A stretch of 64,000 nt of DNA from Algimonas porphyrae. GTDB lineage: Bacteria > Pseudomonadota > Alphaproteobacteria > Caulobacterales > Maricaulaceae. Positions 52,836 to 64,000 of the stretch are shown here, piece by piece (the first letter of the stretch is position 1; each line of letters opens with the position of its first letter). The notes below the pieces were generated by a model. That model searched no databases. It was not told where the DNA came from and saw only the letters and a program-made list of their open reading frames with translations. The position numbers and the translations under genes were made by a program. The stretch is taken from contig NZ_CP163424.1 in the NCBI RefSeq assembly GCF_041429795.1, positions 1,552,001 to 1,616,000 of the forward strand, written 5' to 3'.

Positions 52836-53147
52836 GAAAACCTATTCTCTGACCGGTTTCCCGAGCGCGGGCTATTAACGCTGGGTTCAGAGAAATCAAG
52901 CCACTCATCACCTCAACACGGAGTCGACAGCGTCGTGACACTTTATTAAGGGAAACGGTCGATTTTTGTTACAGGACTGTTACAAACGGAAAGACGACGT
53001 GAAAATCGACGCATCGCGGATGTGATAACCCCCCGGGAACGGCCGACGGGGAGAATGAGGCTGGAACGGGAGACATACGTCGCGAACCCACCCATAAATC
53101 CCAGTGCCGTTACACTGAGAAGACGCGAGTCATCAGAAGAGAAGTTT
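52836..53147. promoter_or_regulatory. intergenic region before the acyl-AMP ligase, with TGTTACA direct repeats
   Basis: No gene seen in these 312 bp. TGTTACA occurs twice, at 52967-52973 and 52978-52984, with centres 11 bp apart (one helical turn), and GTTACA again at 53109-53114. This looks like a transcription-factor site for the sphingolipid operon, but the factor is unknown. Confidence 0.4.
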
Positions 53148-54890
53148 ATGACCGAGCCGACACCGACAGCTCGCACAATCCCCCTACGACATGGCGATTT
53201 CGCGACTCTCACCGAGGCGCTGGACTATGCTGCGGGTGGGACGACGGGTTTCAACTATTTCGATGGGCGCGCTCGCCTTGAAACTGCGCTGAGCTATGCC
53301 GAGCTGCGAACGCAGGCGATCGATGTCGCGAAACGTCTGGTCAGGTTCGCGCCGAAGGATTCCCGCATCGGTCTGGCAGCTGTGTCGACTCCTGAATTCG
53401 CCGTCCTGTTCTTCGCCTGCCAGTATGCAGGCCTTGTGCCGGCGCCTCTACCGCTGCCCGTCACGCTTGGCGGACGCTCTTCCTATGAGCGTCAGCTGGA
53501 GCGGATGGCTGATACAGGCGATTTCTTCGCCCTGTTCGCGCCGGCGGCCATGGAACCGATCATGAGTTCGGCTCTGAATGATACGGCGACACCCGTTTTG
53601 ACGTTCGAAGAGGTCTTCGCCCTGCCACAGGGCGATGCGCTCCGCCCATTCGGTGCCGACGACCTTTGCTACATTCAGTATTCGTCTGGTTCGACATCTT
53701 CGCCCAAGGGAATCCTGGGCACACAGGCGTCGGTCTCGGCCAATTGTCACGGAATCACGAAATACGGGCTGAAGGTCACGGAACTGGACCGCTGCGCATC
53801 GTGGCTGCCGCTCTATCACGATATGGGCCTGATCGGCTGCGTGATTTCCCCGCTCATGTCGCAAATGTCGGTCGATTTCATGAATCCGACCGATTTCACC
53901 CGCCGTCCGATCACCTGGCTGCAGCTGATTGCGGATAATGGGGGGACGCTGTCCTACTCGCCAACCTTCGGTTACGAGCTCTGCGTCCGGCGCTGGCGCG
54001 GGGACAGGGAGCTCGATCTGTCGAGCTGGCGCGCTGCCGGGATCGGCGGCGACATGGTTCGTCCCGAACCGCTGACCGAATTTGCCAAACTGTTCGGCCC
54101 GATGGGCTTTGCCGAATCCGCCTTTACGCCTTCTTATGGCATGGCCGAGACCACGCTGGCGGCGACATTTGCCCCCCTTGGCCAGGGTCTGGTCAAGCAC
54201 ACGATCGACATGCGCCGCTATGAGCGGACGTCCGAAGCGGTTGCTGCAACCGATGTGACGCCGGGTGAAGATACGCGCACCTTCGTAGCCTGCGGCGTCA
54301 AGCTGCCCGGCCATGACATTGAAATTCGCGACGCGGACAATCAAGTGCTGGGCGAAGATCATGTCGGCCGCATCTGTCTGAAGGGCCCATCTCTTTCACC
54401 GGGTTATTTCCGCAACAGCCAGGCGACGGAAGCCGCTTTTTCCAAGGATGGATGGCTCGATACGGGCGATCTTGGCTACTGGCATGACGGACAGCTGATC
54501 GTGACGGGGCGATATAAGGATCTGATCCTCTATCATGGCCGCAATATCTGGCCTCAGGATATCGAATGGGCGGCACAGGCCGCGGCGCCGCATCGCTGTG
54601 GCCGGGCCTGTTCCTTCTCCGTCGGCGGGGCAGGCGATCAGAAAACCATCATGCTGCTGCTGGAATGCCGCACACGCGATCCGAAATTGCTGGCAGAAAT
54701 CGAAGCGGCTGTGTCCGCCGCGATCCGGCTGGAAGTCGGCGTGCCGGTTCAGCTGATGCTCGTGCCGAAATCGACCATGATCATCACCTCATCGGGCAAG
54801 CTGTCACGCGCGCGCGTGAAACAGAAATTCCTCGATGGCGGCATTATCGACCTTCAGGCCCCGACACCTCTGCGTGCGGTCCAAGCCTGA
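53148..54890 (+). CDS. fatty-acyl-AMP ligase/acyl-ACP synthetase of the sphingolipid locus
   Basis: A 580-aa adenylate-forming enzyme of the FAAL type. The start is the ATG at 53148 behind AGAAGAGAAG; the longer frame from 53022 has no homology. Motifs: P-loop YSSGSTSSPKG, PLYHDMGLIG, SYGMAETTLAATF, DTGDLGYWHDGQLIVTGRYKDLI and the C-terminal Lys in SGKLSRARVK. It should activate a fatty acid to the acyl-AMP and load it on the acyl carrier protein encoded next. Position before acp-spt matches the acyl synthetase (AasR) of the Caulobacter ceramide cluster. Confidence 0.9.
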   Translation: MTEPTPTARTIPLRHGDFATLTEALDYAAGGTTGFNYFDGRARLETALSYAELRTQAIDVAKRLVRFAPKDSRIGLAAVSTPEFAVLFFACQYAGLVPAPLPLPVTLGGRSSYERQLERMADTGDFFALFAPAAMEPIMSSALNDTATPVLTFEEVFALPQGDALRPFGADDLCYIQYSSGSTSSPKGILGTQASVSANCHGITKYGLKVTELDRCASWLPLYHDMGLIGCVISPLMSQMSVDFMNPTDFTRRPITWLQLIADNGGTLSYSPTFGYELCVRRWRGDRELDLSSWRAAGIGGDMVRPEPLTEFAKLFGPMGFAESAFTPSYGMAETTLAATFAPLGQGLVKHTIDMRRYERTSEAVAATDVTPGEDTRTFVACGVKLPGHDIEIRDADNQVLGEDHVGRICLKGPSLSPGYFRNSQATEAAFSKDGWLDTGDLGYWHDGQLIVTGRYKDLILYHGRNIWPQDIEWAAQAAAPHRCGRACSFSVGGAGDQKTIMLLLECRTRDPKLLAEIEAAVSAAIRLEVGVPVQLMLVPKSTMIITSSGKLSRARVKQKFLDGGIIDLQAPTPLRAVQA

Positions 54891-54999: not shown

Positions 55000-55245
55000 A
55001 TGCCGACTGACCAGCAAATCTTCGACAAGATCTGCGAGCTGCTCAAGCCGTATAACGTCAAGAATAAACCCATATTGCGAACCTCCGGCATCATGTCGGA
55101 TCTGGAGGTGGATTCCACGGCTGTGTTCGATCTGATCATGGAGCTGGAAGACCATTATGACATCTCCGTGCCGATGGAGGTGATCAGTGACGTCAAGACG
55201 GTTGGCGAACTGGTGAATGCCATTCAGGATCTGCTGCAGCAATGA
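55000..55245 (+). CDS. acyl carrier protein dedicated to sphingolipid synthesis
   Basis: An 81-aa acyl carrier protein. The 4'-phosphopantetheine attachment site is Ser39 in EVDSTAVFDL (Asp-Ser). Helices and length are typical, but the sequence differs from housekeeping AcpP (DSLD replaced by DSTAV). It lies 109 bp after the acyl-AMP ligase gene and overlaps the serine palmitoyltransferase start by ATGA, so it should present the acyl group to that enzyme. Confidence 0.93.
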   Translation: MPTDQQIFDKICELLKPYNVKNKPILRTSGIMSDLEVDSTAVFDLIMELEDHYDISVPMEVISDVKTVGELVNAIQDLLQQ

Positions 55246-56516
55246 GCGGGGCAGGGGGAACAGACGCAGAGACCGGGTCCGGCCTGTCGATCTTCAGCAA
55301 ATATGATCCGCTGAAACAGCGCGCCAGCGTGCTGGAAAAAGTCGGTGTCGATCCGTTCGACATGACGTTCGACGATATTATGGGGCCGACCCGCGGACGC
55401 ATCGGCAATCGCGAAATTATCCTCGCCGGAACCAACAACTATCTCGGCCTGACCTATGATGAGGCAGCCCGCGAGGCCGCCAAGGACGCGATCGACCGGC
55501 ACGGGACCGGTACGACGGGCTCGCGGATCGCCAATGGCACCTATGTCGAGCATGAACAGCTGGAACGGGATCTCGCGGCGCATCTGGGTAAACCGTCCTG
55601 CATTGTCTTCACGACGGGCTATGTCACCAATCTCGCCGCCATGGCGGGGCTGGCGGGGCCGAACGATGTCATTTTCATCGATGCCGACGCGCATGCCTGC
55701 ATCATTGACGGGACGCGTCTGGCGACCAACAAGACGACCGTCCGGTTCCGCCACAATGATCCGGAAAATCTCGACCGTCGTCTGTCGCGACAGGCGATCA
55801 CCGATGGGGGCCATGCTCTCGTCGTGATCGAAGGCCTCTATTCCATGTTTGGCGATATTGCCCCGATTGCCGAATTCGCAGAGGTCTGCGAACGGCACGG
55901 TGCCTATCTCTATGTCGATGAAGCCCATAGTTACGGCGTGTTCGGTCCGACTGGCTGCGGTATCGCCGAAGCGCAGGGCTGTCTCGACAAGATCGACTTC
56001 TATAGCGGCACTTTTTCGAAGAGCTTGGCCAGTGTCGGCGGCTTTTGCGCGTCCCGGCATCCGGAATTCGAGCTATTGCGCAAGGTGATGCGGCCTTACA
56101 TGTTCACCGCGTCGGCGGCTCCGGCCAATATCTGCGCCGCGCAGGCTGCGCTCGACGCGATCAAGACGCGGCCCGAGCTGCGCCACAATATCACCGCCCG
56201 CGCCGCGCAACTGCATGCCGGACTGGCGGAGATGGGCTTTGACCTCTGTGCTCCCGCCAGCCCCGTCATCGCAGTGCGTCGCCCGAACGAGGCGCAGGCC
56301 GCGATGGAATGGAACTGGTTGCTGAAGGAAGGCGTCTACGTCAATCTGGCGGTTCCGCCCGGTACGCCGCAAAGCTCGTGCCTGCTGCGTATTTCCGTTT
56401 CCGCCGCCCATACGGAAGAGGACGTCAATGCGATCCTCAGCCGCTTCAAGGCGTTGCAGGACAATAGTGCTGAGATCATGGGCGAGATGATGCGCCGTTT
56501 GCAGGCCTCAGCCTAA
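55242..56516 (+). CDS. spt: serine palmitoyltransferase (alpha-oxoamine synthase family)
   Basis: PLP enzyme that condenses serine with an acyl thioester to give 3-ketosphinganine, the first committed sphingolipid step. 424 aa. Features: GTNNYLGL, HGTGTTGSRIANGTY, the PLP-stacking His151 (DAHA), DEAHSYGVFGPTG (226-238), and the Schiff-base Lys260 in GTFSKSLASVGG. Context (acyl-AMP ligase and ACP upstream) favours Spt over 8-amino-7-oxononanoate or 5-aminolevulinate synthase. The stop codon abuts the stop of the convergent Tam41-like gene. Confidence 0.9.
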   Translation: MSGAGGTDAETGSGLSIFSKYDPLKQRASVLEKVGVDPFDMTFDDIMGPTRGRIGNREIILAGTNNYLGLTYDEAAREAAKDAIDRHGTGTTGSRIANGTYVEHEQLERDLAAHLGKPSCIVFTTGYVTNLAAMAGLAGPNDVIFIDADAHACIIDGTRLATNKTTVRFRHNDPENLDRRLSRQAITDGGHALVVIEGLYSMFGDIAPIAEFAEVCERHGAYLYVDEAHSYGVFGPTGCGIAEAQGCLDKIDFYSGTFSKSLASVGGFCASRHPEFELLRKVMRPYMFTASAAPANICAAQAALDAIKTRPELRHNITARAAQLHAGLAEMGFDLCAPASPVIAVRRPNEAQAAMEWNWLLKEGVYVNLAVPPGTPQSSCLLRISVSAAHTEEDVNAILSRFKALQDNSAEIMGEMMRRLQASA

Positions 56517-57449
56517 CTAGCCGAACGCGCCCCGCCGCCACAGCTTCCAGCCTAGGACGGGGCTCCAGAGGACCGGATGGCGGCGCTGCGCCTCCGTGAC
56601 CTCCAATTTTACGCCGCTATGGCGTTCCACCTTGCGCAATACATAGTCGAGACCGCCATCGAATGTGGCGGCACTATTGATGACGCGCAGAGCGGCAACG
56701 GGCCGACCGATCAGGCGGCGCAGAAACCAACGCCATGCCGAGCCGTGACCGGGGTAGGTCTGAACCGCAAACTGGTCCGTTCCGTGCCTGTCGAACAGCG
56801 TTGCACTGACGCTGTCGTAACGGTCCTGGTAACGCGCGACGATTTCGCGGGCACGGCCATCGTCGCTTTCGGGGCGTAGTTCCGTGCGGTAGCTCTCATA
56901 AAAGGCGCGACCCCAGAATTCGGGCGATGTGGCAGGGGCATCGAATAATGGCGCGGTTTCGCTTGCCAGTTTTCGTACGGCTGCGGCCCTGGCGGTGGCG
57001 ATCCGGTCGGCGATGGATGGGTCCGATGTGCCGAGCAGGGCGCAGGGCTGGCTGAACCGACCCCAGAGCTGACTGAGAAAAGCGTGGGCGCATCGGCGTT
57101 CGAACTCGCGCAGTGTGATGATGGAATATTTGCAGGTCGAGAGAACGCCGTCCCGTTCCTGCTCCAGATAGTAGACGGCGGGCGGGATCAGGCGGTTCGT
57201 CAGCGCGCGCCATCCCCATCCATGCGTGGCACGGTAGCTATCCACTAGCACGTAGAAATCCAGCATCTTCTCTGCATCGTCCAGATCGCGCAGGGACGAC
57301 CCATAATAGACGAAGCCCAGAACGCGGTCAGGATGGCGATCCCGGATCGCCGCCATGACGGCGTGAACCCGCTCCGGTGGATCAAGCTGTTCGGCGCGGA
57401 TCAGCTTGAGCAATGCGTCATCGGTTGCGTCGACGGAATCGGTATTCAT
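56517..57449 (-). CDS. Tam41-like nucleotidyltransferase in the ceramide locus
   Basis: A 310-aa protein. The segment FVYYGSS (47-52), then MLDFYVLVDS (62-71), a Trp-Gly-Trp and KYSIITL (107-113), then WGRFSQP (129-135), reproduces the motif order of the mitochondrial CDP-diacylglycerol synthase Tam41 (YGS, MxDFxxxVDD, KYGVI, GRxxKP). This is a Pol-beta-type fold; the second carboxylate of the DxD-like pair seems replaced by Tyr66. Coupled by ATGA to the lipid kinase gene. Inferred role: activate ceramide-1-phosphate with CTP, or a related step in ceramide phosphoglycerate synthesis. Confidence 0.7.
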   Translation of the reverse strand: MNTDSVDATDDALLKLIRAEQLDPPERVHAVMAAIRDRHPDRVLGFVYYGSSLRDLDDAEKMLDFYVLVDSYRATHGWGWRALTNRLIPPAVYYLEQERDGVLSTCKYSIITLREFERRCAHAFLSQLWGRFSQPCALLGTSDPSIADRIATARAAAVRKLASETAPLFDAPATSPEFWGRAFYESYRTELRPESDDGRAREIVARYQDRYDSVSATLFDRHGTDQFAVQTYPGHGSAWRWFLRRLIGRPVAALRVINSAATFDGGLDYVLRKVERHSGVKLEVTEAQRRHPVLWSPVLGWKLWRRGAFG

Positions 57450-58351
57450 CGCCGAATAATGATCGGGCGACTGGCGCTCAGACGAAATTGGTTGGACGGT
57501 ACATGTATCGGCTCTCCGTCCAGCATGACGGGGCCGGAATAATCGAACTCGGCATCCTGCGCATTCCAGCTGTGGAAGCCGTCCGGACGCCGGTCCTTAT
57601 CCTTGAAGCCAACCCAGATTTCCGCAATGTGGCGATAAAGCTTGGAACAGCCGCCTTGGACATAGGTCAGACGCAGATCGCCGACCTCGTCGCCCCAGAA
57701 CGGATCCAGTCCCATCGTAATGGAAGGCAGTGTGGTCGCGACGGTTCCGAGATGCCGCCCGGCGAGGGTTTCTCCGTTGATGCGCAGCGTGCAGTCTGTT
57801 TCGCGCATGACGCTGTCGCGCTCCGCCGTGACCGCCTTGACCAGACCGCCGACGACGGCAGCCGATCCGCCAATACCGCGCGTATGCAGCTCGTTCTTCG
57901 CATAATCCGTGACCATGGGCAGAGCCCCGGTTGAAAACAGAAAGCCATATTGATCGGGTGCCCCGTCGCAGGACAGTTTGAGCAAGCGCGTTTCCAGCGC
58001 GTTCGGGTCCTGATGGATCGATTTCAGGCCGGACCGGCCCACACGCTTCATGCCGATAATCTTGGCGATCTGGTTAGTCATGCCGCCCGATGCAATGGCG
58101 AAGTCGGGCAGGGCTCTGTCTTCACCCGATTGTCGCATGACCTCGCTCATCACCGATTGAACCGTGCCGTCGCCGCCTTCGATGACGATAAGGTCCGATG
58201 TCTCCAGCGCCGCTTCGACCTGGCTGGGCAAGGTTTCGAACAGGGCCAGATCGAATACGCGCGCATCATGCTCGGTCGCATAGGTCGCGATGCGCGATCC
58301 TTTCTTGCCGACGCGTTCGGAATGCGGATTGATGAACAGAGAGGCCGTCAT
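57446..58351 (-). CDS. diacylglycerol-kinase-family lipid kinase, probable ceramide kinase (CpgB-like)
   Basis: A 301-aa kinase with the DAGK catalytic-domain signature GGDGTVQSV (59-67), ASGGMTNQIAKI, and a beta-rich C-terminal lid. Homologues in this position of the Caulobacter sphingolipid cluster phosphorylate ceramide (CpgB), so ceramide-1-phosphate formation is the likeliest reaction. It lies 6 bp after lptG and overlaps the Tam41-like gene by 4 bp, putting lipid phosphorylation in the LPS-export operon. Confidence 0.82.
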   Translation of the reverse strand: MTASLFINPHSERVGKKGSRIATYATEHDARVFDLALFETLPSQVEAALETSDLIVIEGGDGTVQSVMSEVMRQSGEDRALPDFAIASGGMTNQIAKIIGMKRVGRSGLKSIHQDPNALETRLLKLSCDGAPDQYGFLFSTGALPMVTDYAKNELHTRGIGGSAAVVGGLVKAVTAERDSVMRETDCTLRINGETLAGRHLGTVATTLPSITMGLDPFWGDEVGDLRLTYVQGGCSKLYRHIAEIWVGFKDKDRRPDGFHSWNAQDAEFDYSGPVMLDGEPIHVPSNQFRLSASRPIIIRR

Positions 58352-58357
58352 GGTTGG

Positions 58358-59437
58358 CTACAAGGCTTCCGTACGGGTCAAAAGGAATGCGGACAACAAG
58401 CCAAAGGCAAGCAGGGGCATGGCAATGGCCGGGAGGACGGCGATCCCGCCGGACGCAGCAAATGTTGCCATTGCCCCGTCAATGATCAGGAAGATGAAAC
58501 CCAGTGTGATCCCAAGAATCAATGTCCGGTCGCCCGTATCTTCCCGTCCTGTGCGCTGCATCAGCGCGGCGCAGGCGATCAGAAGAATAATAGCGGCCAG
58601 CGGACGGGTCAGGCGGTGCGCATGCCAAAAGGCGTAGGCGAAGCTGGGCTTTGCCCCGCTATTGCCCGGTCGCATGAAATTGCGCATCTCGGACAGTGAC
58701 AGATCACGCGGCTCAGCCGCCAGTCGGGCGATCGAAGTCGGTGTCTGGTTCGTGGTCCAGACGGCGCTCCCTTCGACCGGATAGGCTTCGCGCGACTCGC
58801 CGTCTGCACCCGCGACATCGAGGCGACGAACGCCTTGCAGCGTCCATCCCTGATCGGTGAAGGTGGCGCGGTCGGCCCAGATCACGGACTGGACTTCGCC
58901 CAGACCATTGCGCTCGAAGATTTCGAGCTTGGCGAGCGTCTCATAGGATTCGCGGTCAGTGGCGCGCACGATCGCACCATTATCTTCCAGCCAGAGCGGA
59001 TTGTCGGCTGTGATATTCTTGATCTTATATTCGCCGATACCCCAGGCCTGCAATGAGCGCACGGCGGGTGCCATTGTGTAGTCGATGAAGGTCACAGAGG
59101 CGAGCGACGCGCCCAGCACGACCGGGATCATCAGCAGAACCTGCCGCGTCGCACTGATGCCAAAGCCGAGCAGGGCGACAAGTTCATGCTGCCGGATCAG
59201 TTTGACGTAGGTCAGCAGGATCGCGACCACGAGGGTAAAGACGAAGATCCGGTCAAAAATGACAGGGGCGCGCAGGGCCATATACTTGAACGTCCCGCGA
59301 AACCCTTCGCCGCTGGCAACAATATCCGCGCCATTGGCAAGACTGTCGAGCAGGCCGATCAGCACCAGAAAGCCGAAGACGACGGTCAGCCAGGTGAACA
59401 GAAAGGACCGCGAGAGATAGAGCGCGAACTTAAACAT
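58358..59437 (-). CDS. lptG: LPS export ABC transporter permease LptG
   Basis: A 359-aa inner-membrane subunit of the LptB2FG transporter that extracts lipopolysaccharide. It has an N-terminal membrane pair, a periplasmic beta-jellyroll (about 130-260) and four C-terminal helices; the coupling segment LLGFGISATRQV is typical. Distinguished from LptF by its position and length. Overlaps lptF by 8 bp. Confidence 0.92.
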   Translation of the reverse strand: MFKFALYLSRSFLFTWLTVVFGFLVLIGLLDSLANGADIVASGEGFRGTFKYMALRAPVIFDRIFVFTLVVAILLTYVKLIRQHELVALLGFGISATRQVLLMIPVVLGASLASVTFIDYTMAPAVRSLQAWGIGEYKIKNITADNPLWLEDNGAIVRATDRESYETLAKLEIFERNGLGEVQSVIWADRATFTDQGWTLQGVRRLDVAGADGESREAYPVEGSAVWTTNQTPTSIARLAAEPRDLSLSEMRNFMRPGNSGAKPSFAYAFWHAHRLTRPLAAIILLIACAALMQRTGREDTGDRTLILGITLGFIFLIIDGAMATFAASGGIAVLPAIAMPLLAFGLLSAFLLTRTEAL

Positions 59438-60653
59438 GGCGGCCCTCCGGGCGGCCTTGGAGGCGCTGGCGGACCAGCGCGATCAGACGGCGGGCTTCGC
59501 CTTGCAGGTGACTGATCCATTGCGCGAAGGATGTCAGTGGCGGTTGTCCCATCTTGAAGGCGCTCTGACGGAAGATGATAGCGGCGAAGATTGCCAGCAC
59601 AGCCATCAACCCCCAAATTCCGATCCAGGGGGGGATCTTGCCATCGGCCCCCAGTGACTGAGCGAACTCGAGCGCTTTTTGCAGGGATACAAGAAAGACG
59701 ACGCCGACGAATATGCCTGCAGAGGAGGGGTTTCGCCCGTAATTCAGCCCGAAAGGCACGGCGATGAAGGGCAGGATGAACAGCATCAGCGTCTTGGCAA
59801 TACGCAGATGCAGCGCGGCATTGTTCGTGTCGCGCGTTATTTCTGTGCGCTGGTCGCCGCGACGATTTTCGAACAGTTCCGCCGAGGTGAGTTCGCGTTC
59901 ATCATTGCCGCGCGCGCGGAAGGGTACGACGGTTGCCGCCCCGGCGATGGAGGATCCGCCAAAGCCCAGATCGCCGGACAGGCGGCTATTCTCGGTAATC
60001 TGATAGGCCCGGCCCGCACCGAGTTGCAGGACCGGGGCGCCGGTTTCCTCACGGATTATGAGTTCGCCTTCATTGGCCGTGGTCAGGCGAAAGCCCGTCT
60101 GCGTCCCGTCCGTGTCGATGACAGCCTCATAAATGAAGATCGGGCCGATACCGGCGTCCGGCTTGTCCGTGCCACCGAAAAATGTGCGGTCGCCAACCGT
60201 CGTGAACGTGCCCTCGCGCAAGGCGGCTGTGAAGCTTGTCTGCCTCACCGTATTCTCGACCGATCGGTACTGGTAGCGGCCCAGAGGCTGTAGCCAGCCT
60301 TCGATGATGACCGAGCTCACAGCGAGGATGGCGGCGACGGCCAGAAAGGGCTTGGTCATATGGGTCAGCGAGACCCCGGCCCCCAGCGCGGCGGTTAGTT
60401 CCGAGGATCGCGAGAACCGATCGACCGTGATGATCGTACCGAGCATGAGAGCCATCGGGACGGCCATACCCAGATAGTAGGGCAGCAGCGCGACGATCAT
60501 GTTGGTTGCATCGGATGCCGGATTGGTCGAGGTTGTCACGACCTCGAAAATGCGCAGCAGACGCTCCAGCAGAAGCACACAACACGCAAAGACGACCAGC
60601 CCGCCAATGGCGACCGCAGCCTTTTTGAAAAGATATGTGTTTAGACGTCCCAA
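59430..60653 (-). CDS. lptF: LPS export ABC transporter permease LptF
   Basis: A 407-aa partner of LptG with the same architecture: helices near 10-30 and 50-110, a jellyroll with GDRTFFGGTD and LELGAGRAYQI-type strands, and helices from about 290. I chose the TTG at 60653 (MGRLNTYLFKKA), which has AGGA 5 bp upstream and gives the usual LptF N-terminus; an ATG at 60698 adds 15 basic residues. First gene of the lptF-lptG-kinase-Tam41-like operon. Confidence 0.92.
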   Translation of the reverse strand: MGRLNTYLFKKAAVAIGGLVVFACCVLLLERLLRIFEVVTTSTNPASDATNMIVALLPYYLGMAVPMALMLGTIITVDRFSRSSELTAALGAGVSLTHMTKPFLAVAAILAVSSVIIEGWLQPLGRYQYRSVENTVRQTSFTAALREGTFTTVGDRTFFGGTDKPDAGIGPIFIYEAVIDTDGTQTGFRLTTANEGELIIREETGAPVLQLGAGRAYQITENSRLSGDLGFGGSSIAGAATVVPFRARGNDERELTSAELFENRRGDQRTEITRDTNNAALHLRIAKTLMLFILPFIAVPFGLNYGRNPSSAGIFVGVVFLVSLQKALEFAQSLGADGKIPPWIGIWGLMAVLAIFAAIIFRQSAFKMGQPPLTSFAQWISHLQGEARRLIALVRQRLQGRPEGRHV

Positions 60654-60763
60654 CAGATTCCTGCGATTTCTACTTTGATAACCTCGGAAGCACGCCATAT
60701 CCAGAGGGCGTCCCGCATGAATGGTTCATGTCGGACTCATCTTCCGGGGCCTATTGAAAAGCC

Positions 60764-61345
60764 ATGATGAACGCAAATCACTGCTACAGACCCTACCAAA
60801 GAATAATTCGCCGGATCGAGCGTGGACGTTTGCCACTGGCTGCGACCGTCGCGACCTGTGCCGCCTTGGCCACGCCCGCCTTCGCGGATGACGAGGCACC
60901 GGCCCTTTCTGCCATCGGTATCGAGCGCGGGCTAGAGCTCTATGACTGGGACGCGGCTGATCGCTGCATTCTCGGCTTCCATCAAATCCGCATCACGGTG
61001 AACAATGTGACCGAAGAGGGCATATTGAAACTGGAACTGTTCGGCGAAAAGGATTTCATGCGCAGTTCGGGCAAGTTGCGCCGCATTCGCGTACCGGCCG
61101 AGGACGGACCGATGCGCGTCTGCATCCATGTTCCGGAAGCGGGCGAATATGCCGTCGTCGGCTATCATGACAAGGACGGGGACCGGAAGCTCGACAAGAA
61201 GTGGAATTTCAAGCCCAAAGAGCCTTACGGCCTGTCGAACAATCCGGAAATCAAGTCGCTGCGTCTTCCGAAATGGGAAGAAACACGCTTTACCGTGCCG
61301 CATGATGGTGTCGATATTGTCATCAATCTGGTTGACCTGGGCTGA
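60764..61345 (+). CDS. DUF2141 domain secreted protein
   Basis: A 193-aa periplasmic protein. A long basic N-region precedes the signal peptide hydrophobic core (LPLAATVATCAALATPAFA). The mature beta-sandwich shows the DUF2141 pattern: ILKLELFGEKDFM, VPAEDGPMRVCIHVPEAGEYAVVGYHDKDGDRKLDKK, EPYGLSNNP. The Asp-rich loop may bind calcium. Function unknown. Divergent from lptF and 54 bp before the GNAT-like pseudogene, within the sphingolipid region. Confidence 0.88.
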   Translation: MMNANHCYRPYQRIIRRIERGRLPLAATVATCAALATPAFADDEAPALSAIGIERGLELYDWDAADRCILGFHQIRITVNNVTEEGILKLELFGEKDFMRSSGKLRRIRVPAEDGPMRVCIHVPEAGEYAVVGYHDKDGDRKLDKKWNFKPKEPYGLSNNPEIKSLRLPKWEETRFTVPHDGVDIVINLVDLG

Positions 61346-61399: not shown

Positions 61400-62552
61400 A
61401 TGGCGGATGCGGCTTCGGACTTGACGGACATTCTGGTCAGCAGCGCCGCGACGGCGTCGGCCGACTTTCTGGAGCTTCCCTATAGCCTCTATGGTGGTGA
61501 AGCGGCGTGGCGTGCGCCGTTGCGGATGGAACGGCGCGCCCAGCTCGGCGCCAAGAACCAGGCATTGCAAGGCGTAACGCCCCGTTTCTTTCTCGCCCGT
61601 CGCGACGGCCATGTCGTCGGGCGCATCGCTGCCTTCACAAATGCGCGCTACGACGCAGAGCATGGTCGGGAGACGGCCTTTTTCGGCTATTTCGATTGTA
61701 TCGACGATCCCGATGTGTCCGATGCGCTACTCTCCGCCGCAAAGGATTGGGGTCGGGCTGAGGGTCGGCAGCGCATGGTTGGCCCTGCCATGTGGAGCGT
61801 CAATGAGGAAGTCGGCCTGCTGGTCGATGGCTATGGGCATCCGCCCGCCGTCATGATGCCTTACGGTCATCCGCATCAGCTCGACGCCGTTACGCGCAAC
61901 GGATTTACCAAGGCCGTCGACCTTTATGCCTACCGCGCGGACCTGACCAAAGGCGCACCGACCAACAGATTGGTGCAGAATTCTACGGGCGTTCGCCGAG
62001 CGGGATGATGGGCTGAGCTGGCGCACGCTGGGGCGTGACTTTGCCGGCGACGCCCGAATGGCGCTCGATATCTTCAACGATGCCTGGTCCGGCAATTGGG
62101 GGTTCGTGCCCTTCTCGGAAACGCAATTTCTGCACATGGCAAAAGAGATGAAGCCGATCATGTTCCGGGACGGGTTCCAGCTCGGTTTCATTGACGGACA
62201 GCCTGCCAGCTTCATCTGGATGATTCCGGACGTCAATGCTCTGGTCGAAGGTTTTGAGGGGCGTCTGCTTCCCTTCAACTGGGCCCGGCTGCTCTACCGT
62301 CTGAAGGCCAGACAGGTCGATCGGGGTCGGGTGCCGCTGATGGGGCTCAAGCGCGAATTTCATAAGGGACGGCGCGGTGTGGCCCTGACGACGGAAATCT
62401 GCTCACGCGCTTTCGATGCTGGCCAAGCGCAGGGCTATAAGCAGTGCGAGCTGTCCTGGATCCTGGAAGGCAATCGCAGCATGAGCGCGATCTGTGACAT
62501 GGTCGGAGCGGATCTCTACAAGACCTACCGGATGGTCGAGGCTGACCTGTGA
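61400..62552 (+). pseudogene. YghO/bacterial ceramide synthase-like GNAT protein, frameshifted
   Basis: Two frames form one family member of about 380 aa. The first half (61400-62008) contains YSLYGGEAAWRAPLR, GRIAAFTNARYD, FFGYFDCIDDP and GPAMWSVNEEVGLLVDGY. The second half continues, before its first ATG at 62058, as LRAFAERDDGLSWRTLGRDF (from about 61983) and then FNDAWSGNWGFVPF. The switch lies near 61974-61984 and needs one base removed or two added. The family is YghO-like, to which I believe the Caulobacter ceramide synthase (bCerS) belongs. It is coupled by GTGA to the next gene. Either truly inactivated or a sequencing slip. Confidence 0.75.
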
Positions 62553-63298
62553 GCCGGCGGACGATCATTCTCGCCGGTCAGCGCCCTGGGCCGGATGCGC
62601 TCTGTATCCATGCCGACGTGCCGTTCAAGGCGGATATCCCGATTGCGGGCGTGCCAATGCTGGACCGCGTGGCCGGAGCTCTGAGTGAGGCAGGACTGAC
62701 CCAGCCTTACATTCTGTCCGGCTATCCACACGCACGAGAGGGCTTCGAACGCGCCGAAGGCGGATGCGGCCCAGCCGACAGCGCCATGATGGCCGTCGGA
62801 GCAGGCACGTTTCCCGTGCTGATGACGACCTGCGATCACGCGCTGCTGACACCGGATATGGTGCGGGACTTCCTCGCCGGTGCGGAGGCCTCGGGCGCTG
62901 ATTTCGCCGTCGGACTTGCGAGCCGGGAGACGATCCAGGCGCGCTATCCCGAAACGAAGCGAACCTATCTCTGTTTTCGCGATGTTGCCGTCAGCGGCTG
63001 CAACCTCTTCTACATTCGCAACGCAGCTGGACTGGCGGCGATCGAGTTCTGGCGCGATGCGCAGCATCTGCGCAAGCAGCCCCTGAAATTGGCGAGCAAG
63101 ATCGGCACGCGCATCACGATCCGCTATGCGCTCGGGCGTCTGACGATGAAGGATGCGTTTGCCTATGGCAGCCAGCGCATCGGCGCTGTGGCTGCCCCTG
63201 TCCTGCTCGACCATGCCGAGGCCGCGATCGACGTCGATAGTCCGGCCGATCTGGCACTGGTCGAAGATATTCTGTTGCGACGTCAGAAAGCCGTCTGA
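62549..63298 (+). CDS. MobA-like NTP transferase domain protein
   Basis: A 249-aa GT-A-fold nucleotidyltransferase. The start is the GTG at 62549, overlapping the preceding stop. It shows IILAGQRPGPD at the N-terminus instead of the strict GGxGxR signature, PIAGVPMLDRV, a central VLMTTCDHALLTPDM (metal-binding Asp), and a C-terminal IDVDSPADLALVEDIL typical of sugar- or alditol-phosphate nucleotidyltransferases. In this locus it might activate the headgroup of an anionic sphingolipid; that is inference. Confidence 0.8.
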   Translation: MSRRTIILAGQRPGPDALCIHADVPFKADIPIAGVPMLDRVAGALSEAGLTQPYILSGYPHAREGFERAEGGCGPADSAMMAVGAGTFPVLMTTCDHALLTPDMVRDFLAGAEASGADFAVGLASRETIQARYPETKRTYLCFRDVAVSGCNLFYIRNAAGLAAIEFWRDAQHLRKQPLKLASKIGTRITIRYALGRLTMKDAFAYGSQRIGAVAAPVLLDHAEAAIDVDSPADLALVEDILLRRQKAV

Positions 63299-63300
63299 GC

Positions 63301-64000
63301 GTGGCATTGCGCCCGAATACGCTGGATACGCGCACGACAACCGGGATCGGGCGGCGGATCGCCTCCAATACCGGCCTCTTGCTGGGGGCAAAAATCGTCG
63401 GCACGCTGCTCGGTATCGGGACCTTGCTGATCGCGACCAAGACGCTGACGGCTGCGGAGTTCGGCACGATCGTGTTCCTGCACGCCTATATGCTGTTCTT
63501 TGCGGAGGTCGCGACCTTCCAAAGCTGGCAGTCCATCATCCGCTTCGGCACGGACGATATCACCAATAGCGACCGCGCCAGCCTGACGCGGCTGCTGCGC
63601 TTCGGCTATACGCTCGATATCGTATCTGTCTTGCTGGGCTATCTGCTGGCGATCGGCGCGTTCAGCCTCGTCGTGATGATCGCCGATGCGCTGCCGGGCC
63701 TGTCACCGGGCGAGGGTGTTGATATCGACGCGTTACAGACGCTGGTCACCCTCTACTGTCTAGTCATTCTGGCGCGGTTTACGAGCACCTCGATCGGGGT
63801 TTTCCGACTGTTCGACAAATTCTCCATTCTGGCCGTCGAAGCGCTCATTCTGCCGATCGTGCGGTTTGGCGGCGCGGTCTTGGCGGCGTCGCAGGGATGG
63901 GGCCTGACGGGCTTCGTTGCAGCCTGGTTTTCTGGCTCGCTGGCACAATATGTCTTCCTTTGGGTCGCCGGGGGTATCGAGCTTCATCGTCGCGGCCTGC
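63301..64000 (+). CDS. polysaccharide/lipid flippase-like membrane protein, partial
   Basis: The frame opens with a GTG 2 bp after the preceding stop and is still open at the window end (233 codons). It begins MALRPNTLDTRTTTGIGRRIASNTGLLLGAKIVGT and contains at least four hydrophobic segments (LLIATKTLTAAEFGTIVFLHAY; LLGYLLAIGAFSLVVMI; LVILARFTSTSIGVF; FVAAWFSGSLAQYVFLWV). The arrangement, with the NTAxxLLxxk-like first helix, is typical of Wzx/MOP-superfamily oligosaccharide or lipid flippases. The C-terminal half is missing, so the call is tentative. Confidence 0.75.
   Translation, partial: MALRPNTLDTRTTTGIGRRIASNTGLLLGAKIVGTLLGIGTLLIATKTLTAAEFGTIVFLHAYMLFFAEVATFQSWQSIIRFGTDDITNSDRASLTRLLRFGYTLDIVSVLLGYLLAIGAFSLVVMIADALPGLSPGEGVDIDALQTLVTLYCLVILARFTSTSIGVFRLFDKFSILAVEALILPIVRFGGAVLAASQGWGLTGFVAAWFSGSLAQYVFLWVAGGIELHRRGL

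Follow-up and report, generated by a model that had tools for sequence, protein, structure and literature searches.

The window is a 64,000-nucleotide stretch of the Algimonas porphyrae genome (NZ_CP163424.1), and its neighbourhood is the bacterial ceramide locus known from Caulobacter, as described in PMC11324152. The gene under study, cpgC, is confirmed as a real open reading frame at 56517–57449 on the reverse strand, with an ATG start, 310 amino acids and no internal stops. An earlier note on this DNA had described a set of motifs in its product, and all are in place: Y49-G50-S51 (YGS), M62-L63-D64-F65-Y66-V67-L68-V69-D70 (MLDFYVLVD), K107-Y-S-I-I (KYSII) and G130-R-F-S-Q-P135 (GRFSQP). 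The note's claim that the gene is directly coupled to a probable ceramide kinase also holds. The cpgB orthologue (57446–58351, reverse strand), a DAGK_cat lipid kinase (PF00781, E 6.3e-9) corresponding to the ceramide kinase of Caulobacter, lies upstream of cpgC and shares an ATGA overlap with it.

On the other side of cpgC, the serine palmitoyltransferase gene spt (55242–56516, forward strand; PF00155, E 2.2e-46, and gene order) is convergent, its last base abutting the cpgC stop. Before it lie genes for an acyl carrier protein of the acpR type (55000–55245, forward; PF00550, E 5.5e-8, and position) and an acyl-activating AMP-binding enzyme of the aasR type (53022–54890, forward; PF00501, E 1.6e-49, and position). 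Beyond cpgB are two permease genes on the reverse strand, LptG-like (LptG2 type, 58358–59437) and LptF-like (LptF2 type, 59430–60698). These are followed on the forward strand by a DUF2141 protein at the CC_1157 position (60764–61345; PF09912, E 9.1e-23), a probable ceramide synthase gene, cerS, at the CC_1154 position (61400–62552; named from gene order, with no Pfam or NCBIfam match), an NTP_transf_3 protein at the CC_1153/CofC-like position (62549–63298; PF12804, E 5.7e-10, and gene order) and the start of a polysaccharide-flippase-like protein of the CC_1166 type (63301–64000), which runs off the window. Downstream of the window the ceramide locus is extended by genes for a HAD-IB phosphatase, an ATP-grasp protein (Dala_Dala_lig_C), a second NTP_transf_3 (CofC-like) protein and an aspartyl/asparaginyl hydroxylase-like protein (L031:4641-8251). 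The HAD, ATP-grasp and second CofC-like genes are extra relative to the Caulobacter crescentus locus, and the four together suggest a headgroup other than CPG2.

In Caulobacter, CC_1161, which encodes CpgC, is flanked by spt (CC_1162) and by cpgB (CC_1160), the ceramide kinase gene (PMC11324152). By gene order and family, the window ORF is the orthologue of this CC_1161/CCNA_01219 protein: it sits in the same place between spt and a CpgB-type ceramide kinase gene, adjoins the latter on the same strand and has the same pathway neighbours. The spt|cpgC-cpgB order is common to the named Hyphomonas, Hellea and Algimonas loci and to two Caulobacter-like loci (L143 and L144) that reproduce most of the published Caulobacter order. 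Unlike C. crescentus, A. porphyrae has no CpgD-type gene at the locus, a CpgD-type probe having matched only short stretches of other genes, and no CpgA type was found in a genome search for CDP-alcohol phosphotransferase-family genes.

Of 150 genomes of the order, 39 have a CpgC homologue, as do 27 of 398 genomes of the phylum. Among named genomes, a scan confirmed 276 homologues, and 80 were retained. Pairing with the kinase is nearly constant: of the 136 loci read, 133 have cpgB directly upstream of cpgC in the same orientation, although these loci are not independent (some genomes appear twice, and L113 is the window's own genome). The three loci that differ are L091, L094 and L138; in L091 and L138 the upstream DNA extends for just 1.1 and 1.6 kb.

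The likeness to the mitochondrial CDP-diacylglycerol synthase Tam41, also put forward in the earlier note, is borne out by predicted structure and by residue correspondence. An AlphaFold2 model of CpgC, built on an alignment of 81 homologues, has a pLDDT of 93.2 and a pTM of 0.90. The note had proposed a Foldseek check against Tam41 structures; run against the whole PDB, it placed Tam41 chains at ranks 1–5, among them the CTP-Mg complex 7ecd (E 6.3e-8), and the first other match was ANT(4'') (E 3.5e-5). The predicted fold is of the Pol-beta nucleotidyltransferase type. VIA aligned the model with 7ecd, a Firmicutes Tam41–CTP complex, at Z 19.3 over 227 residues (rmsd 3.0), and with Schizosaccharomyces pombe Tam41 at Z 15.1 (6ig4_B) and 14.8 (6ig2_A). 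The best non-Tam41 chain in VIA, an aminoglycoside nucleotidyltransferase, scored Z 7.0 with 114 aligned residues in the nucleotidyltransferase domain, though Foldseek may have overlooked other folds. In Tam41, CTP is placed between a nucleotidyltransferase and a winged-helix domain, according to a review (PMC7018664). The aligned range of the CpgC model, residues 22–263, spans both predicted domains, at about 14–16% identity to the solved Tam41 structures. Resemblance of CpgC to Tam41 in fold is therefore strongly supported at the level of the model.

The putative active site agrees with the fold. In the 81-homologue alignment, Y49, G50, D64, K107, W129, R131, Q134, Y187, E190, R192, E194, T262, Y269 and K273 are invariant, S51 is kept in 79 sequences and Y66 in 78; this invariance puts the motif match beyond chance. 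The two solved Tam41s have in common K-Y-G, G-R-F-Q-K-P and S-Y-x-G-D-x-R, and the residues identical in both (K107, R131, Y187 and R192 by CpgC numbering, with E190 for Asp) are among those invariant in CpgC. The spacings from K107 to R131 and to P135, 24 and 28 residues, equal those of S. pombe Tam41. An hhalign comparison of the CpgC profile with two Tam41 fragments set K107, R131, F132, P135, S186-Y187 and E190 opposite K, R, F, P, S-Y and D, a result that is weak by itself (probability 30%, E 5.6e-4, with two fragments on one side). Tam41 has GS and Asp motifs, and the CpgC sequence likewise holds a GS motif, one putative catalytic Asp and a conserved Lys/Arg/Tyr site. Both proteins have a reduced acid set and agree at the K, R, F, P, Y, R and acid positions, whereas the lysine after GRFQ in Tam41 is replaced by the invariant Gln134 in CpgC.

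The earlier note had also flagged Tyr66 as a changed acidic position. CpgC does have Tyr at the position of the second acid in canonical Pol-beta enzymes, but this is no lesion: judged from the alignment, Tyr is the normal residue of the CpgC family there. According to a paper on this fold, Tam41 itself retains a single acid of the usual three (PMC11646218), so the missing acids in CpgC fit Tam41 and are no argument for a dead enzyme. We therefore rejected Tyr66 as a mark of inactivity.

At the sequence level the relationship is distant. Profile searches with the window protein found no match to PF09139 (Tam41) or another nucleotidyltransferase family, leaving it below the Pfam cut-off. Against the 81 CpgC homologues, PF09139 matched four at E ≤ 10 (best E 1.2e-4). 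Its top match across 398 genomes was a CpgC homologue (G249; E 2.2e-4, 21 bits) under the cut-off of 24. These PF09139 matches lend the Tam41 likeness some support from sequence that does not depend on the model. Tam41 was not recovered by single-sequence or profile searches of PDB sequences with CpgC, and a search with a gammaproteobacterial homologue brought up 6ig2 at no better than E 1.4. Because of these PF09139 results we name CpgC Tam41-like, a member of the CpgC family and not of Tam41.

Caulobacter CpgB phosphorylates ceramide to ceramide-1-phosphate (C1P; PMC10331486), and CC_1161 mutants make no ceramide phosphoglycerate (CPG), which complementation restores (PMC11324152). Work on the Caulobacter orthologues has thus established that the kinase is active and that CPG formation genetically requires CpgC. 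From its name and the published scheme, CPG has a single phosphate between ceramide and glycerate, so the phosphate of C1P must be activated before glycerate can attack. Since the orthologue works between C1P and CPG, formation of CDP-ceramide is the best available mechanism, and an enzyme resembling Tam41 is the natural candidate for this activation. CpgC would be a nucleotidyltransferase of the Pol-beta fold, soluble or peripheral to the membrane, that shares the two-domain build of Tam41 and binds an NTP, most likely CTP, between its nucleotidyltransferase and winged-helix-like domains. It would convert C1P from the neighbouring kinase and CTP to CDP-ceramide and pyrophosphate, acting as a probable CTP:ceramide-1-phosphate cytidylyltransferase, and CPG would arise when a separate transferase exchanges the CMP for glycerate (or phosphoglycerate). 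We infer the nucleotide, the CDP-ceramide product and the acceptor step, and we consider that this two-step scheme is probably correct.

The scheme differs from that of Tam41 in its presumed substrate, C1P rather than phosphatidic acid. Analogous chemistry on a phospholipid phosphate and CTP is performed by the CDP-DAG synthase CdsA (CTP_transf_1), which, unlike CpgC, is an unrelated integral membrane protein encoded by a separate gene in A. porphyrae (E 3.9e-50). The phosphoglycerate cytidylyltransferase CpgD carries out another CTP-dependent step of the same lipid pathway (PMC12275187) but belongs to a different fold family, has a different substrate and serves the second phosphoglycerate.

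The idea is not new. For CC_1161, activation of ceramide as an NDP derivative, with a further unknown enzyme for glycerate, was put forward by Olea-Ozuna et al. in 2024 (PMC11324152). Dhakephalkar et al. (2025) state that CpgC acts by a 'yet unidentified mechanism' (PMC12275187), and a 2026 preprint about CpgD has, in its available portion, no new information about CpgC chemistry (PMC13228409). The open-licence literature searched yielded no mention of CDP-ceramide by name or of five related terms. The CDP-ceramide reaction is likely, and previously suggested in print.

CpgC could instead belong, in this strain, to a decaying or altered pathway with no ceramide product. A single 379-aa homologue matches the probable cerS in two frames that meet at about 61983–61990, a single frame break relative to intact relatives, so the ceramide pathway may not run here unless this is a sequencing error. 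Either the assembly is in error or ceramide synthesis is broken. The failure to find CpgA in the genome and the lack of a CpgD-type gene at the locus would also fit decay. Against this, the spt, cpgC and cpgB frames are intact, as are the homologous loci of relatives, and one frame break can be a sequencing error. We regard decay as unlikely.

The CDP-ceramide route requires an acceptor transferase. The later-acting CpgA, a type that adjoins cpgB-cpgC in other genomes, was rejected as the acceptor of CDP-ceramide: CPG forms without CC_1159 in the published complementation (PMC11324152), and A. porphyrae has no detected CpgA. Its genome search returned two CDP-alcohol phosphotransferase-family genes, PgsA and a divergent PgsA paralogue. 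The paralogue lies on the reverse strand at about 2242924–2243754 of the contig (L149:6922-7755), between uvrC and pgsA. Its motif, DxxDDxxGG...DDxAD, keeps the four aspartates and has GG in place of AR. Of 150 genomes of the order, nine carry strong homologues (E < 1e-50), and these are exactly the nine whose CpgC reaches at least 53% identity; all eight of those read keep the motif aspartates. This uvrC-linked paralogue may be the acceptor enzyme or no more than a trait of the clade, and its match with CpgC across the clade may reflect common descent. About evenly balanced, in our judgement, is the fuller proposition that CpgC is a CDP-ceramide synthase founding a sphingolipid branch of the Tam41 superfamily, its product used by a CDP-alcohol phosphotransferase for which the uvrC-linked paralogue is the candidate in the Algimonas/Hellea clade.

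More broadly, an extra CDP-alcohol phosphotransferase gene is present in 34 of 39 genomes with CpgC and 18 of 111 without it (Fisher p 1.9e-15), and the association persists within mixed genera (CMH p 9e-4). In 14 of 23 CpgC genomes inspected singly, the extra gene is within about 10 kb of cpgC. We did not adopt this as a rule: the difference in gene content is real, but the known CpgA accounts for at least part of it.

Alternatively, CpgC might both activate C1P and transfer it to glycerate, with no separate transferase. The two genes genetically required for CPG are cpgB and cpgC (PMC11324152, PMC12275187). Several cpgB-cpgC loci have no phosphotransferase gene of this family nearby, and 4 of the 39 CpgC genomes of the order have a single such gene (family counts shift slightly between runs; G019 gave one and then two, and 4/39 uses two), so the transfer in those four may fall to PgsA itself or to CpgC. 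A second active site or extra domain is not evident in the predicted model, however, and no Tam41 is known to perform both steps, which we count against this reading; housekeeping PgsA or an enzyme encoded elsewhere could do the second step. We judge a two-step CpgC to be quite unlikely.

A different nucleotide acceptor, such as a water-soluble headgroup precursor or a protein, would reduce the Tam41 likeness to a shared nucleotide site. Pol-beta enzymes differ widely in acceptor, and antibiotic adenylyltransferases are the next structural matches. The 227-residue match to Tam41 nevertheless covers the second domain, and CpgD already makes CDP-glycerate and is dispensable for CPG (PMC11324152, PMC12275187). 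Such an acceptor seems very doubtful. Highly improbable is a true Tam41, a second CDP-DAG synthase that takes phosphatidic acid and raises the CDP-DAG supply for making lipids: Tam41 is the closest fold, but with a canonical CdsA present a second such enzyme is not obviously needed, cpgC is paired with a ceramide kinase gene rather than with phosphatidic acid genes, and loss of the orthologue abolishes CPG (PMC11324152).

With anionic sphingolipids, Caulobacter survives without lipopolysaccharide and becomes polymyxin-sensitive. The literature, as represented by the available portion of PMC12275187, gives no known chemistry for the step after ceramide kinase. If CpgC makes CDP-ceramide, sphingolipid headgroup assembly would parallel phosphatidylglycerol synthesis, with a missing second transferase to be sought. 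The present analysis contributes a two-domain fold match of high confidence, accounts for Tyr66 and finds cpgB and cpgC paired at nearly all loci read; it also supplies a genome that has this pair and no detected CpgA. A strong structural match to a CTP-using lipid-activating enzyme, with an intact predicted site, makes the 2024 discussion remark simply testable.

Two related loci carry other proteins of possible relevance to the headgroup. In Algimonas arctica, a CDP-glycerol glycerophosphotransferase-like protein (PF04464; L033:846-2078) lies at a ceramide locus where no CpgA was seen, possibly as an unrelated replacement for phosphoglycerate addition; a search of the A. porphyrae genome, run without a positive control, found no match to this Glyphos_transf protein. 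In Hellea balneolensis, an 834-aa protein (L047:1637-4141) is a polysaccharide flippase fused to a CpgA-type CDP-alcohol phosphotransferase, a domain absent from the A. porphyrae flippase-like protein at 63301 (464 aa in the full genome). The Hellea fusion suggests that headgroup extension is coupled to flipping.
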